Source: Bacillus sp. FJAT-45350
GTDB taxonomy: Bacteria; Bacillota; Bacilli; Bacillales; NISU01
Assembly: GCF_002335805.1 (NCBI RefSeq)
Contig: NZ_NISU01000001.1
Location: 3,046,079-3,110,078 of the forward strand
Direction: 5' to 3'
DNA: 64,000 bases
Part shown: positions 58,354 to 64,000 of the stretch, piece by piece
Numbering within the stretch: the first letter of the stretch is position 1
Layout: each line of letters starts with the position of its first letter
Notes under the pieces: generated by a model
What the model saw: the letters and a program-made list of their open reading frames with translations, nothing else
Databases searched by the model: none
Told to the model about the DNA's origin: nothing
Made by a program: the position numbers and the translations under genes

Positions 58354-59241
58354 TCATCCTTGGCTACCTTCTTCATTCTTCTTAAGAAAGAACTTTTGCC
58401 TAATCCCTCGAACGACAATACCATACTTCGGAGAGAACAAGAATGCTAGAACAAATAAGATCGATGCGACAAGTACAATTGATGCACCTGTTGCTACATC
58501 GTAAATGAAGGAGTAATACACACCTACAATCGCAGAAATGACTCCAAAGACAGCTGAAAGAACAATCATCGTTGAAAGACGATTTGTTAATAGATACGCT
58601 GTTGAACCCGGGGTGATTAACATTGCCACAACTAAGATAATCCCAACTGATTTTAACGAAGCTACTGTTACTAATGCCAAAACAAACATTAGCAAATAGT
58701 GAATTAGTTTTGTTGGTAAGCCTATTGCCTGTGCCATAATTGGATCAAATGTACTAACTAATAATTGCTTATAGAATAGAGCAATTAATATTAGTACAAG
58801 TACACCAATGCCAATCGTTAACTGTAAATCAGCAGTTGAGACAGCTAATACGTTACCGAATAAAATATGCCATAGATCGACCCCAGTCCCTCTATTAAAG
58901 GTAATGAGGATAATACCTAGAGCAAATGCAGCTGTAAACATAATTCCAATCGATGAATCATGCTTTATTCGACTGTTTTGCGACACATAACCAATCGCTA
59001 AAGCAGTAATAATACCGGTAAACACCGCACCAATAAAATAACTCGTTCCAATCATATAAGCGATTACGACACCTGGAAGAACGGCGTGAGAAATTGCATC
59101 CCCCATAAGAGCCATTCCCCTTAAAATTATAAAACATCCGACAACGCCACAGATAATACCTACAAGAATACCTGCTAACATAGCATTTTGTAGATATTGA
59201 TATCGACCAAGGGCGTCTAAGAAGAATGAAATGTTTTCCAT
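58354..59241 (-). CDS. Metal ABC transporter permease (ABC-3, Mn/Zn type)
   Basis: 295-residue membrane permease of the manganese/zinc/iron ABC-3 family, about eight helices. The MGDAISHAVLPGVVIAYMIG motif (about residues 46-65) is characteristic. It is translationally coupled to the ATPase (stop and start share one base). The partner binding protein has Mn-type ligands, so manganese is the likely cargo. A single permease is used, not two. Confidence 0.92.
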   Translation of the reverse strand: MENISFFLDALGRYQYLQNAMLAGILVGIICGVVGCFIILRGMALMGDAISHAVLPGVVIAYMIGTSYFIGAVFTGIITALAIGYVSQNSRIKHDSSIGIMFTAAFALGIILITFNRGTGVDLWHILFGNVLAVSTADLQLTIGIGVLVLILIALFYKQLLVSTFDPIMAQAIGLPTKLIHYLLMFVLALVTVASLKSVGIILVVAMLITPGSTAYLLTNRLSTMIVLSAVFGVISAIVGVYYSFIYDVATGASIVLVASILFVLAFLFSPKYGIVVRGIRQKFFLKKNEEGSQG

Positions 59242-59999
59242 TAGCCACCCACCACCATTGTTTCACCATCATTAGAGACAAATGTCACTTTTCCCTTATA
59301 GGCTTTTTCAAGGTTTTTCATATGAAAAACCTCATCAGTTTTTCCATAATCAATAAGCTCTTTGTTTATAATAATGAGACTATCAAAGTAATCCTTCACT
59401 TTATTTAAATCATGGTGTACAACAAGTAACGTTTTCCCTTGCTTTTTTAAGTCTTTTAATATGTTAATAATGATTTTTTCAGAGGTCATATCAATACCCG
59501 CAAATGGTTCATCTAAGAAGAATAAATCTGACTCTTGTGCTAGCGCTCTTGCTAAAAACACGCGCTGTTGCTGTCCTCCTGATAATTCACCTATTTGCCT
59601 TTTACTAAAGTCGAGCATTCCTACTTTCTCTAAACAATTACGTGCGATTTCACGGTCGTTGTTTCCAGGGCGTCTCCACCAAGATAAATGTGGGTACCTT
59701 CCCATAACAACAACGTCCTCTACCAAAACAGGAAAATCCATATCTATGTTACTACGCTGTGGTACATATGAAATTCTCTTTCTAGATTTTTTTATAGAAT
59801 TACTAAAGATTTTCATTTCTCCACTTTTAGTAGGAATAATCCCCATAACTGACTTTATAAATGTCGATTTCCCTGCACCGTTTGGTCCAATAATTCCTAT
59901 TAATTCTTGATTAGGTAATGATAAGGAGCTAATATCAAGTGCTTTTTCATCATAATAGTAAACTGCTAAATTGTTAATCTCCACACTATGATTTGTCAT
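59241..59999 (-). CDS. Metal ABC transporter ATP-binding protein
   Basis: 252-residue ATPase. Walker A is IIGPNGAGKSTFIK (about residues 32-45), the signature is ELSGGQQQRVFLARAL, and Walker B is LFFLDEPFAGID. ATG 59999 follows AAGGAG. The gene lies between the solute-binding protein and the permease, in one operon. Confidence 0.93.
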   Translation of the reverse strand: MTNHSVEINNLAVYYYDEKALDISSLSLPNQELIGIIGPNGAGKSTFIKSVMGIIPTKSGEMKIFSNSIKKSRKRISYVPQRSNIDMDFPVLVEDVVVMGRYPHLSWWRRPGNNDREIARNCLEKVGMLDFSKRQIGELSGGQQQRVFLARALAQESDLFFLDEPFAGIDMTSEKIIINILKDLKKQGKTLLVVHHDLNKVKDYFDSLIIINKELIDYGKTDEVFHMKNLEKAYKGKVTFVSNDGETMVVGG

Positions 60000-60026
60000 T
60001 TCTTTCTCCTTTCTCAAGAAGTGCAA

Positions 60027-60063: not shown

Positions 60064-61023
60064 TTATCGGGCTAATCCTGCAACAAACACTTCTACATTA
60101 CGCTTTGTCATTTCAATATACGTCTCAGCACCACTTCCCGCAGCACCTACCGCATCCGTATAGACTTCCCCTGCAATTGGAATTCCTGCTTCATTTGCTA
60201 CAGTCTCCATATAGCGTTTGTCTACAGTTGACTCTACAAATACCGCATGAACGTTACGTTCTTCTACTAACTCTACAATACGTGATATTTGTTGAGGTGT
60301 ACCCTCTTCACTTGAATTAATTTCCCATACACCTTCTGTTTCAAAACCATAGCTTTCTCCAAAGTACTTAAATGCATTTTCTGTTACAACAATGACACGT
60401 TGCTCTTCTGGAATTTGTTGTACTTGCTCTTCAATCCAAGCATCTAGTTCTTCTAATTCCGCAATATATGCATCTGCATTTTCACGGTATGTTGCTTCAC
60501 CATCAGGATCTCTTTCTATTAGGTCACTTACAATGTTTTCTACATAGATTATTACATTCTTAGGACTTAACCAAGCATGAGGATCGTTCTCATCATCACC
60601 AACTAGCGGGATTGGTGTCACTCCATCAGAAACAGTTACGATATCGGTGTCTGAAACATTTGATACGACTCTCTCTAACCATTCCTCCAAATCTAAACCA
60701 TTTACATAGAATACATCTGCGTCACTTAGCTTTTTAAAGTCACTAGGAATCGGCTCATATTCATGTGGTTCTTCTCCAATTGGTACTATATACTCAACTG
60801 TTCCACGGTCACCAACTACTTGTGAAATGATATCCCCTAAAACTGAAAAACTCGTAGTAATCTCTAGACCTTCATTACTTACCTCAGTAACCACTTCTTC
60901 ATTGTTTGTGTTTGCATCTTCGTTAGTTGTTCCTTCATTTGATGTTTCCTCAGAACCGCACGCAGCCATTAGAAATCCTAAAACTGCCACTACACTAATC
61001 ATTGTTAACATTCTTTTCAACAT
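60064..61023 (-). CDS. Metal ABC transporter substrate-binding lipoprotein (manganese type)
   Basis: 319-residue lipoprotein: signal MLKRMLTMISVVAVLGFLMA-AC with acylated Cys22, then a short Asn/Glu-rich linker and the ZnuA/MntC-type fold. Predicted ligands are His87 (EEPHEYEP), His149 (NDPHAWLSP), a glutamate in VVTENAFKYFGE and the aspartate in EVYTDAVG. Two His plus Glu and Asp fits Mn/Fe binders (PsaA, MntC); zinc binders usually have a third histidine. The start follows GGAGGAG. Two TTGC-N6-GCAA dyads upstream may be MntR sites. Confidence 0.88.
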   Translation of the reverse strand: MLKRMLTMISVVAVLGFLMAACGSEETSNEGTTNEDANTNNEEVVTEVSNEGLEITTSFSVLGDIISQVVGDRGTVEYIVPIGEEPHEYEPIPSDFKKLSDADVFYVNGLDLEEWLERVVSNVSDTDIVTVSDGVTPIPLVGDDENDPHAWLSPKNVIIYVENIVSDLIERDPDGEATYRENADAYIAELEELDAWIEEQVQQIPEEQRVIVVTENAFKYFGESYGFETEGVWEINSSEEGTPQQISRIVELVEERNVHAVFVESTVDKRYMETVANEAGIPIAGEVYTDAVGAAGSGAETYIEMTKRNVEVFVAGLAR

Positions 61024-61118
61024 GTAATTTCTCCTCCATTCATTTAATTAAATAAAATAAGTAGATTCATTGACTGTTACCTCAATAATACCTCCTTATT
61101 TGTCCACTACTAATTCTT

Positions 61119-61132
61119 TTGCACTTAGGCAA
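61119..61132 (-). promoter_or_regulatory. TTGC-N6-GCAA dyad 1 upstream of the metal importer
   Basis: TTGCACTTAGGCAA, about 100 bp upstream of the start codon. It is related in form to MntR boxes (TTTGCCTTAAGGCAAA-type). A second copy lies at 61274-61287. Confidence 0.45.
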
Positions 61133-61273: not shown

Positions 61274-61287
61274 TTGCCCTTGTGCAA
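61274..61287 (-). promoter_or_regulatory. TTGC-N6-GCAA dyad 2 upstream of the metal importer
   Basis: TTGCCCTTGTGCAA, the same arms and CTT core as dyad 1, 155 bp further upstream. Confidence 0.4.
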
Positions 61288-61404: not shown

Positions 61405-62085
61405 TTATTCATTTTCAAAACATGCATTTTGATTATTGCATGTAAAACAATTAGATAGCATACTACTACGTAATTCGCTCTCCCTTGGTGTATACGTATA
61501 GCGGATACCATTTTCTAACGAGATTACTTCAATTCTCTCTGGCACCTCTCCAAAAGCCAACTTTGAGAAATATGTAATAGTACTCCAATAGGAATCAAGC
61601 ATGTCCTCTTTTACTTGAACTAAGTATTTCTTAACAACATAAGAATTTGGAGACCATGAAGCCACATCAATTGTTAAATTAAAAATACGATTAAGCTTCT
61701 TATGACAGGCAGTCACTTTCTCGAATAGAAACAAGGGTGGTGTAGACTCGCATTCTTGCATTAAAAACTGAATTAAGTGATCAATCACTTTGGCGACCGT
61801 TGTATAGTAATGTCCCACTGAATTAAACGAACCTTTATCAACATTACCCCAATAATGATTAAATAACTGTAACACTTTCAAAGAAGTACGTTCATGAACA
61901 TTTAACATGAAAAAATCTGACACTACTTTATTAATAGCTTGTTGTGTAGTTAGAAGCCAGTTATATTGGTTGTCTTCATGATCTAGCTGATTATGATAAT
62001 AGAAACGGTAAGGACAGGTAATGTAACTGCTAATTGACTCATAATGCAATGCATTTTCTGATAACTCCTGAAGTGAATTTAACAA
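61405..62085 (-). CDS. Small PD-(D/E)XK-like iron-sulfur protein, probably catalytically inactive (unknown function)
   Basis: 226 residues. The N-terminal ESISSYITCPYRFYYHNQL is the usual first strand/helix of RecB/AddB/Cas4-type PD-(D/E)XK nucleases. Four cysteines match the AddB cluster pattern: Cys24, and C-terminal Cys213-x2-Cys216-x5-Cys222 (B. subtilis AddB has CxxCx5C after a distant Cys). The middle part (TIDVASWSPNSYVVKKYLV, residues 138-156) aligns by eye with the catalytic strands, but the acidic residue of (D/E)xK is replaced (VVKK). Translation starts at TTG after AAAGGAGG. It follows the DUF2325 gene by 16 bp, and both share Fur boxes. Function is unknown; Fe-S sensing or a DNA role are guesses. 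Confidence 0.7.
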   Translation of the reverse strand: MLNSLQELSENALHYESISSYITCPYRFYYHNQLDHEDNQYNWLLTTQQAINKVVSDFFMLNVHERTSLKVLQLFNHYWGNVDKGSFNSVGHYYTTVAKVIDHLIQFLMQECESTPPLFLFEKVTACHKKLNRIFNLTIDVASWSPNSYVVKKYLVQVKEDMLDSYWSTITYFSKLAFGEVPERIEVISLENGIRYTYTPRESELRSSMLSNCFTCNNQNACFENE

Positions 62086-62101
62086 CTTCCGTCCTCCTTT
62101 C

Positions 62102-62434
62102 CTAACAATTCATGTTGTATTTACTACAGTTATTTCTAGAAGCACATTGATGCTGTTCACACTTTCCTATTGCCTGATAGATTGAACACCATGAACGCTT
62201 AGCGTAACAAATAGGAATCTCTTGTTCACTCGCTTTCTTTTTTAATACTGTCGATAAATTATGATTAATGTAATCCGTTAATACTAAAATTAAATCAATA
62301 TGATTCGGAATTTCCTTCTTAACTTGCTGTACCTTTCTACCATTGATATGTATAATTTCCCGAAAACCGATCCCCTCTAATTTACTTGGGATTTTCCCTA
62401 AGTGATCCGCTCCAACAATAAGTAATGATGACAT
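62102..62434 (-). CDS. DUF2325 protein with cysteine-rich C-terminus, Fur-controlled
   Basis: 110-residue DUF2325 family protein. The N-terminal part (LLIVGADHLGKIPSKLEGIGFREIIHINGRK) and LILVLTDYINHNLSTVLKKKASEQEIPICYAKRS are family features. The last 35 residues carry six cysteines (76, 83, 92, 97, 103, 110), more than is usual as far as I know; this could be a metal or Fe-S site. The start follows GAGGAGG. Two Fur boxes and a promoter lie directly upstream. The domain has no proven function. Confidence 0.8.
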   Translation of the reverse strand: MSSLLIVGADHLGKIPSKLEGIGFREIIHINGRKVQQVKKEIPNHIDLILVLTDYINHNLSTVLKKKASEQEIPICYAKRSWCSIYQAIGKCEQHQCASRNNCSKYNMNC

Positions 62435-62471
62435 AACTCTTCCTCCTCGTATAAATCATCTCCCTAAAGTT

Positions 62472-62490
62472 GAAAATGATTATCATTTAT
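62472..62490 (-). promoter_or_regulatory. Fur box 1 (downstream of the -10)
   Basis: TGAAAATGATTATCA (62471-62485) matches the 7-1-7 Fur consensus TGATAAT-N-ATTATCA at 13 of 14 positions. It lies between the -10 and the DUF2325 start codon. Confidence 0.88.
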
Positions 62491-62496
62491 AATTAC

Positions 62497-62526
62497 ATTT
62501 TAATTGATACTAATTATCAATGTCAA
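62497..62526 (-). promoter_or_regulatory. Promoter with Fur box 2 in its spacer
   Basis: -35 TTGACA (62521-62526), 18-nt spacer, -10 TAAAAT (62497-62502). Fur box 2, TGATACTAATTATCA (62505-62519), has one mismatch to the 7-1-7 consensus and lies inside the spacer, ideal for repression. Confidence 0.88.
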
Positions 62527-62717: not shown

Positions 62718-64000
62718 TTAACCTATTAACTTCAAAATCCTTTTCAAATTAACTGTAAATATCGACATAGCTCCTTGTAGTTCCATGCCAATAAGACCCG
62801 AAGATGATGCTACATCATACCCGTGTCGGTGTTTTAATTCACTGTTTTTTGCTTCAATTTTATATCTTTCTTTTGATTTTTCTTTAAAATAATCGCTTTC
62901 TTGAAAGGCTATTTGTTCTTTGTGTATATTCGATTTAATGCTCACAGAATAAGTCTTACTTTTAGCTCCATCTTTATAACATCCTTCTTTTATAGGACAT
63001 ACCTTACATTTTTCTACATTAAAGTAATATGTGTGTGTTTGATTTGTGGCTACACCTTTTTTTCCAGTTCGTGCTTTCCTAATAGCCATATGTCCAGCCT
63101 TACAAACATACATACTAGCATCTTTATTAAACTCAAATTCGTCTTCTTTTTTTCGGTTACCTTGTGTGACAACAGGGTTGAGTTTAGCTATTAACTTCAT
63201 TTCGTTTGTTTTTGTATATTCAATATTCCCTTTTTCTGAATAGGCGGCATCACCAATCACAGTATCAACTTCCATACCAGCTTCCATACTTTTTTCAATT
63301 AAGGTTTCTAATTGCTTTCCGTCATTCTTTTCTCCAGTTGTAACAACAGCCGCAGTAATAATTCTTTCTTCGCTTAAGGCTATGTGTGTTTTGTAACCAA
63401 AGAATGAGGAGTCCACTGTTTTATGTCCTGTTTTTGCGTCTTCATCTTTGGATAATTGTAGATGTTCAATATCATCAGCCACAGTTTCTTTAAGCAGGTT
63501 TAATTTTTCTTTTACTTTGGGGAATTCACAAATAACCTCTTCTTTTTCAATGACTTTAATCAGCTTTTCACAGTATTCAATTTGATCTTCTAATACATCT
63601 GATGTTGTCTTGGTTGGAAATTTACTTTTCATTGTTTCATCTACTTGATAAATCGTCTTTCTTAGGTTTTTAGACCGATCAACCAGCACTTCTTTGGCTG
63701 ATTTTTGATTGTAACGAGACTGGGTATGGGTAGCATCTACAATAATAGATTTGCTTTTTATAATTTCTTTTTCGATTGCGATCTCAACCGTTTTATTGAT
63801 TAGCATGTCTAATAAATTTACATCCTTTAATCGCAGTTTTCGAAACTTCGTTAAGGAACTTGGCTCAATAACTGGATCTTCTGGCGCCATATCTAAAAAA
63901 TATTTGAATGACATATCATATTTTGAGCGTTCGACAATATCAACATCGGATACGTTGTGGATACATTTTAATAATAAGTATTTGAACATGCGAATAGGAT
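62718..64000 (-). CDS. IS1182 family transposase, N-terminus outside the window
   Basis: 427 residues visible, continuing past the right edge (the frame is open at 64000). The N-terminal segment PIRMFKYLLLKCIHNVSD and VDATHTQSRYNQ (first catalytic Asp), VVIGDAAYSEKGNIEY (second Asp), and the zinc finger region CKVCPIKEGCY, then AKNSELKHRHGYDVA with the Glu (residues about 385), fit the DDE catalytic triad of IS1182/IS5-like transposases. Seems intact within the window. Confidence 0.92.
   Translation of the reverse strand, partial: PIRMFKYLLLKCIHNVSDVDIVERSKYDMSFKYFLDMAPEDPVIEPSSLTKFRKLRLKDVNLLDMLINKTVEIAIEKEIIKSKSIIVDATHTQSRYNQKSAKEVLVDRSKNLRKTIYQVDETMKSKFPTKTTSDVLEDQIEYCEKLIKVIEKEEVICEFPKVKEKLNLLKETVADDIEHLQLSKDEDAKTGHKTVDSSFFGYKTHIALSEERIITAAVVTTGEKNDGKQLETLIEKSMEAGMEVDTVIGDAAYSEKGNIEYTKTNEMKLIAKLNPVVTQGNRKKEDEFEFNKDASMYVCKAGHMAIRKARTGKKGVATNQTHTYYFNVEKCKVCPIKEGCYKDGAKSKTYSVSIKSNIHKEQIAFQESDYFKEKSKERYKIEAKNSELKHRHGYDVASSSGLIGMELQGAMSIFTVNLKRILKLIG

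Follow-up and report, generated by a model that had tools for sequence, protein, structure and literature searches.

A candidate iron-responsive gene pair in Bacillus sp. FJAT-45350 joins a probably nuclease-dead AddB-like protein to a DUF2325 protein

Two adjacent genes of Bacillus sp. FJAT-45350, called here D and A, are probably switched on by iron shortage. They lie near one end of a 64,000-nucleotide stretch of contig NZ_NISU01000001.1, and this whole stretch is referred to below as the window. In the explanation that fits the evidence best, to which about an even chance can be given, the two genes form an accessory module for iron starvation that is linked to flavodoxin, the substitute for ferredoxin, with the product of A as a binding adaptor and the product of D as its partner. 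The best reading of A is that of a domesticated AddB-like domain within an accessory module of the flavodoxin regulon, with the nuclease/Fe-S domain of an enzyme of the AddB/Cas4 type as its ancestor. Judged from its residues, A is probably a dead nuclease that is likely to bind an Fe-S cluster. No publication on A was found in a literature search. The features of the region are listed below in window coordinates.

58354..59241, minus strand: metal ABC permease (ABC-3), from profile matches
59241..60026, minus strand: Mn/Fe-type ABC ATPase, from profile matches
60064..61023, minus strand: Mn/Fe/Zn-type ABC substrate-binding lipoprotein of the ZnuA/EfaA/MntC family (PF01297, 297 bits; NCBIfam)
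61118..61132, unstranded: MntR-like box (presumed) TTTGCACTTAGGCAA, upstream of the metal ABC operon
61274-61287: second MntR-like box (presumed) TTGCCCTTGTGCAA
61361..61400 (about), minus strand: terminator hairpin of the D-A unit, then U-runs (-18.8 kcal/mol, z -3.6)
61405..62085, minus strand: gene A, 226 aa, AddB/Cas4-type PD-(D/E)XK-fold protein, TTG start
62102..62434, minus strand: gene D, DUF2325 protein, 110 aa, 6 Cys, PF10087 match, Rossmann-like model
62471..62485, unstranded: Fur box 2, just downstream of the -10 hexamer, 1 mismatch to TGATAATNATTATCA
62497..62502, minus strand: -10 hexamer TAAAAT, 18-nt spacer to the -35 hexamer
62505..62519, unstranded: Fur box 1, inside the promoter spacer, 1 mismatch to TGATAATNATTATCA
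62521..62526, minus strand: -35 hexamer TTGACA, from the promoter scan

The D-A unit is read from the minus strand and contains a promoter, two Fur-like boxes, two genes close together and a terminator. The promoter, TTGACA-18-TAAAAT (62526-62497), scores 11/12, and both its sequence and the coordinates of the unit agree with an earlier note made on this DNA. The two Fur boxes described in that note were also recovered, each with a single mismatch to the 7-1-7 consensus TGATAATNATTATCA against which Fur-like sites were scored. Such sites are rare. Under a Markov-1 model of the window, 0.03 sites with at most one mismatch are expected per 64 kb, pairs of Fur-like sites within 60 bp appeared in none of 100 Markov-1 trials, and the whole 4.3-Mb genome has only ten places that match this well. 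The boxes stand 34 bp apart, which is also their distance in the closest relative (L105). D begins with ATG behind a GGAGG Shine-Dalgarno sequence, and after a gap of 16 nt A begins with TTG, preceded by AAAGGAGG. The terminator, which together with the close spacing of the genes had been noted before, is a hairpin that a simple terminator scan did not list.

The regulation is conserved in relatives. In 21 of 28 loci, a Fur box with at most one mismatch lies 5' of the gene that heads the cluster, as compared with 10 of 296 control genes (p = 8e-20), and such a box is found in 40 of 49 A loci, among which loci of one genus are not independent. The proposal of Fur control is thus supported both by the two boxes and by their conservation, which places D and A in the Fur regulon at the level of sequence.

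The surroundings of the unit are richer in metal transport genes than had been thought. The earlier note had stated that no iron transport gene adjoins it; in fact, a Mn/Fe/Zn-type ABC operon (61023-58354) starts 381 nt downstream of A on the same strand. These genes are cut off from A by the terminator hairpin, and the unit does not form an iron-uptake operon with them. The operon is preceded by two boxes that we take to be MntR-like from the MntR consensus, suggesting that the transporter may carry manganese. On the other side, about 6.5-10.6 kb upstream of D, outside the window and beyond IS elements, there is an ABC transporter of the ferric type (Fbp/Phn superfamily; L104:6953-11134 = G000:C1:3114952-3119133). 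Fur-like sites accompany it at L104:9910 and 11176. Its family profiles include aminoethylphosphonate transporters, and its substrate assignment is uncertain. An IS1182-family transposase (window 62718-63989) is found directly upstream of the D-A promoter. In one relative (L106), a Fur-boxed ferric-type ABC transporter precedes D. There, D has two Fur boxes and, instead of A, its direct follower (the two at L106:6452-7959) is a Mn/Fe-type substrate-binding gene of the same family as the one at 60064-61023. It seems that the transposase and further insertions split D from the ABC transporter that is adjacent to it in this relative.

The pairing of D and A extends beyond a single genome. Among 299 genomes of the host's order, A was found in 46, D in 107 and both in 33, so that 33 of the 46 A genomes also hold D (Fisher p = 8e-8). 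The two genes are adjacent in 24 of these 33 genomes, as counted from coordinates and with some weak matches included. A survey of co-occurrence, named in the earlier note as a check on the pair, therefore speaks for the association. Short A proteins devoid of cysteines come after several D genes, and many D genes have no recognisable A. The hosts of A include Metabacillus, Litchfieldia, Peribacillus, Priestia megaterium and Aneurinibacillus, and in a 398-genome sample of the phylum its clear homologues beyond the host's order belong to one family from another order of the same class.

The commonest neighbour of A is flavodoxin, which lies at most 1.5 kb away in 28 of 49 loci, with the reservation that loci of one genus are not independent. 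D is near A in 15 of the 49 loci and a small IDEAL-domain protein in 17, while 9 loci have none of these three genes nearby. The IDEAL-domain protein (PF08858, 23.2 bits; for example, L050:8856-9281) is a recurrent companion of A. The five loci examined in the other order of the class all have a Fur box followed by flavodoxin and then A, which has lost the Fe-S cysteine pattern there. The gene order in Priestia is ribonucleotide reductase (RNR) alpha, RNR beta, D, A and flavodoxin, and class I RNR genes adjoin in Aneurinibacillus as well. In the genome studied here, flavodoxin is not part of the D-A operon. It sits at G000:C1:2031726-2032154, downstream of paired Fur-like sites (two mismatches each) and beside a Peripla_BP_2-type (siderophore/B12 family) ABC system. 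The same genome has a second flavodoxin gene, located after the class I RNR beta gene (L122, L073; G000:C1:1049822-1051268). A role in defence was considered and dropped, as there were no PADLOC matches and no defence neighbours. Because D-A is located near metal transport genes and flavodoxin is the commonest partner elsewhere, the pair appears to belong to the set of genes for adaptation to iron starvation.

These associations could also mean that A and D serve flavodoxin more directly, as accessories of electron transfer or Fe-S maintenance. They might dock flavodoxin on a target, such as the ribonucleotide reductase in Priestia, or pass electrons or iron through the cluster. The frequent adjacency of flavodoxin, the class I RNR genes in Priestia and Aneurinibacillus, and the cysteine-rich C-termini that both D and A have in this genome are all in keeping with such a role. 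However, A proteins without cysteines still accompany flavodoxin, so there is no need for A itself to carry electrons, and the RNR-associated flavodoxin of this genome is a different gene. We consider this explanation unlikely.

D is a member of the DUF2325 family (PF10087; 55.8 bits against a gathering cut-off of 33.6) and the sole copy found in the genome. Its predicted structure is a Rossmann-like alpha/beta fold (pLDDT 78). The fold search returned just generic receiver and Rossmann matches (Z at most 9.6) that indicate no specific function, and weak rows for Argonaute were judged to be chance. Both proteins had been described as unusually rich in cysteine, which is true of D, with 6 cysteines in 110 residues, and only mildly so of A, with 6 in 226. 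Four of the six cysteines of D are in a C-terminal tail that is missing from most relatives. Basic and histidine residues are conserved in D. Some D proteins (L094, L095, L099) have a CxxCP tail similar to the Fe-S motif at the C-terminus of A, and they occur where A is missing or free of cysteines, as though the motif had passed from one protein to the other.

The nature of A is less easily seen. Taken alone, it gave nothing significant in profile searches of Pfam, NCBIfam, PADLOC and PHROGs, the RecB/AddB-type nuclease families of Pfam included, and its sequence found only chance hits in the PDB. The profile search proposed in the earlier note was therefore productive for D and failed for A itself, although a relative of A (L050) reaches PDDEXK_1 (PF12705) with 24.4 bits at a cut-off of 22. 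A relative also scored weakly against the Cas4 profile (TIGR00372), with 21.4 bits, below the cut-off of 65 bits, and no cas genes are among the recurrent neighbours. The fold was recognised from a structure model built from 30 homologues (pLDDT 75, with much of the core above 90). The model has the RecB-family nuclease fold, with the nuclease domain of AddA (Z 12.2), ACE1 (Z 12.1) and Dna2 (Z 11.7) as matches, and Foldseek relates it to PD-(D/E)XK nucleases of the RecB/AddB type (E 2e-5). The N-terminus of A aligns with AddB of the same genome, including the first Fe-S cysteine (hhalign E 1.4e-5), and in direct alignment the C-terminal C-x2-C-x5-C falls on that of AddB. Both the PD-(D/E)XK-like fold and the AddB-type cysteine pattern proposed before were borne out by these comparisons. 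Of the six cysteines, the four at conserved positions make up the predicted Fe-S ligand set, Cys24 and Cys213-x2-Cys216-x5-Cys222, and 25 of 27 long homologues have all four. The geometry of the cluster is outside the model because the cysteine-bearing ends have a pLDDT below 50.

The active site is altered. The acid two residues before the lysine, which belongs to the DYK motif in AddB, is replaced at position 151 of A by valine, and all 30 homologues have V, I or L there. Lys153 is invariant among the 30, and 27 of them have Asp or Glu at position 140. Since a metal-ligand acid of the active site has been lost, A most likely no longer cuts DNA. The cluster is also not a fixed property of the family. 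The Fe-S ligands have been lost in several lineages that keep the A gene and its Fur box, so the cluster must be dispensable there. For this reason, it is probably a lineage-variable refinement and not the functional core, and the sensing of iron through the cluster, as suggested in the earlier note, cannot be the whole or the ancestral function.

A protein that has kept the fold of a nuclease and lost its catalysis might still hold nucleic acid. A, with D, could be a nucleic-acid-binding regulator whose dead nuclease groove holds mRNA or DNA; the loss of the cluster in iron starvation would alter its affinity, and the pair would be a protein counterpart of iron sparing of the FsrA/FbpABC type. 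The fold itself is that of a nucleic-acid-binding domain, in which the catalytic acid is lost while Lys153 is invariant, and the conserved basic and histidine residues of D could contribute. No copy of the small RNA FsrA turned up in this genome, and strong matches are confined to 7 of 299 genomes of the order, all of one other genus. Nevertheless, the absence of FsrA is not peculiar to genomes with A, and FsrA is too narrowly distributed to be informative about complementarity with A. Furthermore, no target sequence or RNA partner was found, and switching through a cluster is impossible for homologues without cysteines. Such a regulator seems improbable, to about the same degree as the flavodoxin accessories discussed above, which are the other main rival explanation. 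A bolder version, in which nuclease-dead, Fe-S-binding A and the DUF2325 protein act together as a switch set by iron status, binding nucleic acid or protein and directing iron sparing in Bacilli, is somewhat less probable still; if real, it would be a bacterial functional analogue of the iron-regulatory proteins. Retained nuclease activity of A, through a shifted metal ligand and in the service of DNA repair during iron starvation, would suit the fold, the invariant lysine and the acid at position 140, but the loss of the acid before the lysine in every homologue and the absence of repair genes from the recurrent neighbours make it very unlikely.

The regulatory sites with their conservation, the gene pair, the fold, the cysteine pattern, the altered active site and the gene associations are results of computation, from which a function can only be proposed. 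The accessory module tied to flavodoxin could work as follows. When iron becomes scarce, Fur would leave both boxes, and D and A would be made together. A, with the fold preserved and the four Fe-S cysteines still present in this lineage, would act as a binding adaptor and not as a cutter, and D would be its Rossmann-like partner. We infer that the two proteins form a complex in which the occupancy of the cluster reports the supply of Fe-S. By binding a protein or nucleic-acid partner, the complex may ease the replacement of iron enzymes by flavodoxin and manganese substitutes. The pair is assigned to the flavodoxin arm of iron sparing because relatives carry A directly beside flavodoxin.

Across a large class of bacteria, two protein families without an assigned function are now connected with the response to iron starvation. 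The results suggest that the Fe-S nuclease domain of a DNA-repair enzyme was recycled into an accessory of the iron response. With its conserved promoter, its link to flavodoxin and its homologues in Priestia megaterium, the D-A pair is directly testable.

Among known systems, the nuclease/Fe-S domain of AddB (PF12705, AddAB) shares with A the N-terminal LESxxxCPxxF, which includes the first cluster cysteine, the C-terminal C-x2-C-x5-C and the fold. A differs from it as a stand-alone protein of 226 aa that has no helicase, is missing the catalytic acid and has Fur boxes at its promoter. Cas4 and Cas4-like proteins such as the Argonaute-associated ACE1 (PDB 9iac) resemble A in fold (Z 12.1) and cysteine layout, whereas A has no CRISPR or Argonaute partner and its active site is dead. 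There is a precedent for the reuse of such a domain, as an inactivated Cas4 derivative serves as a viral nucleocapsid protein (PMC5704561). The loci of A also recall ykuNOP of the B. subtilis type, a flavodoxin operon with a partner gene of unknown function (L124). The identification of A with YkuO, which accompanies the Fur-regulated flavodoxins of B. subtilis, was rejected, since in genomes of that genus the protein at the YkuO position is unrelated (best hmmsearch E > 0.1). On the side of D, the closest likeness, in both the DUF2325 protein and its regulation, is to the Cj1383c-Cj1384c pair of Campylobacter jejuni, which is Fur-repressed and highly iron-responsive (PMC4491227, PMC3815106). 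Cj1384, a small cysteine-rich DUF2325 protein of 104 aa with 7 cysteines, is induced 352-fold by violet-blue light and has been reported to be under PerR (PMC9426514). Unlike D-A, the C. jejuni pair lies beside katA, and PerR control is reported in addition to that by Fur. Since a DUF2325 protein is thus Fur-repressed in a distant phylum too, solving one case may explain both.
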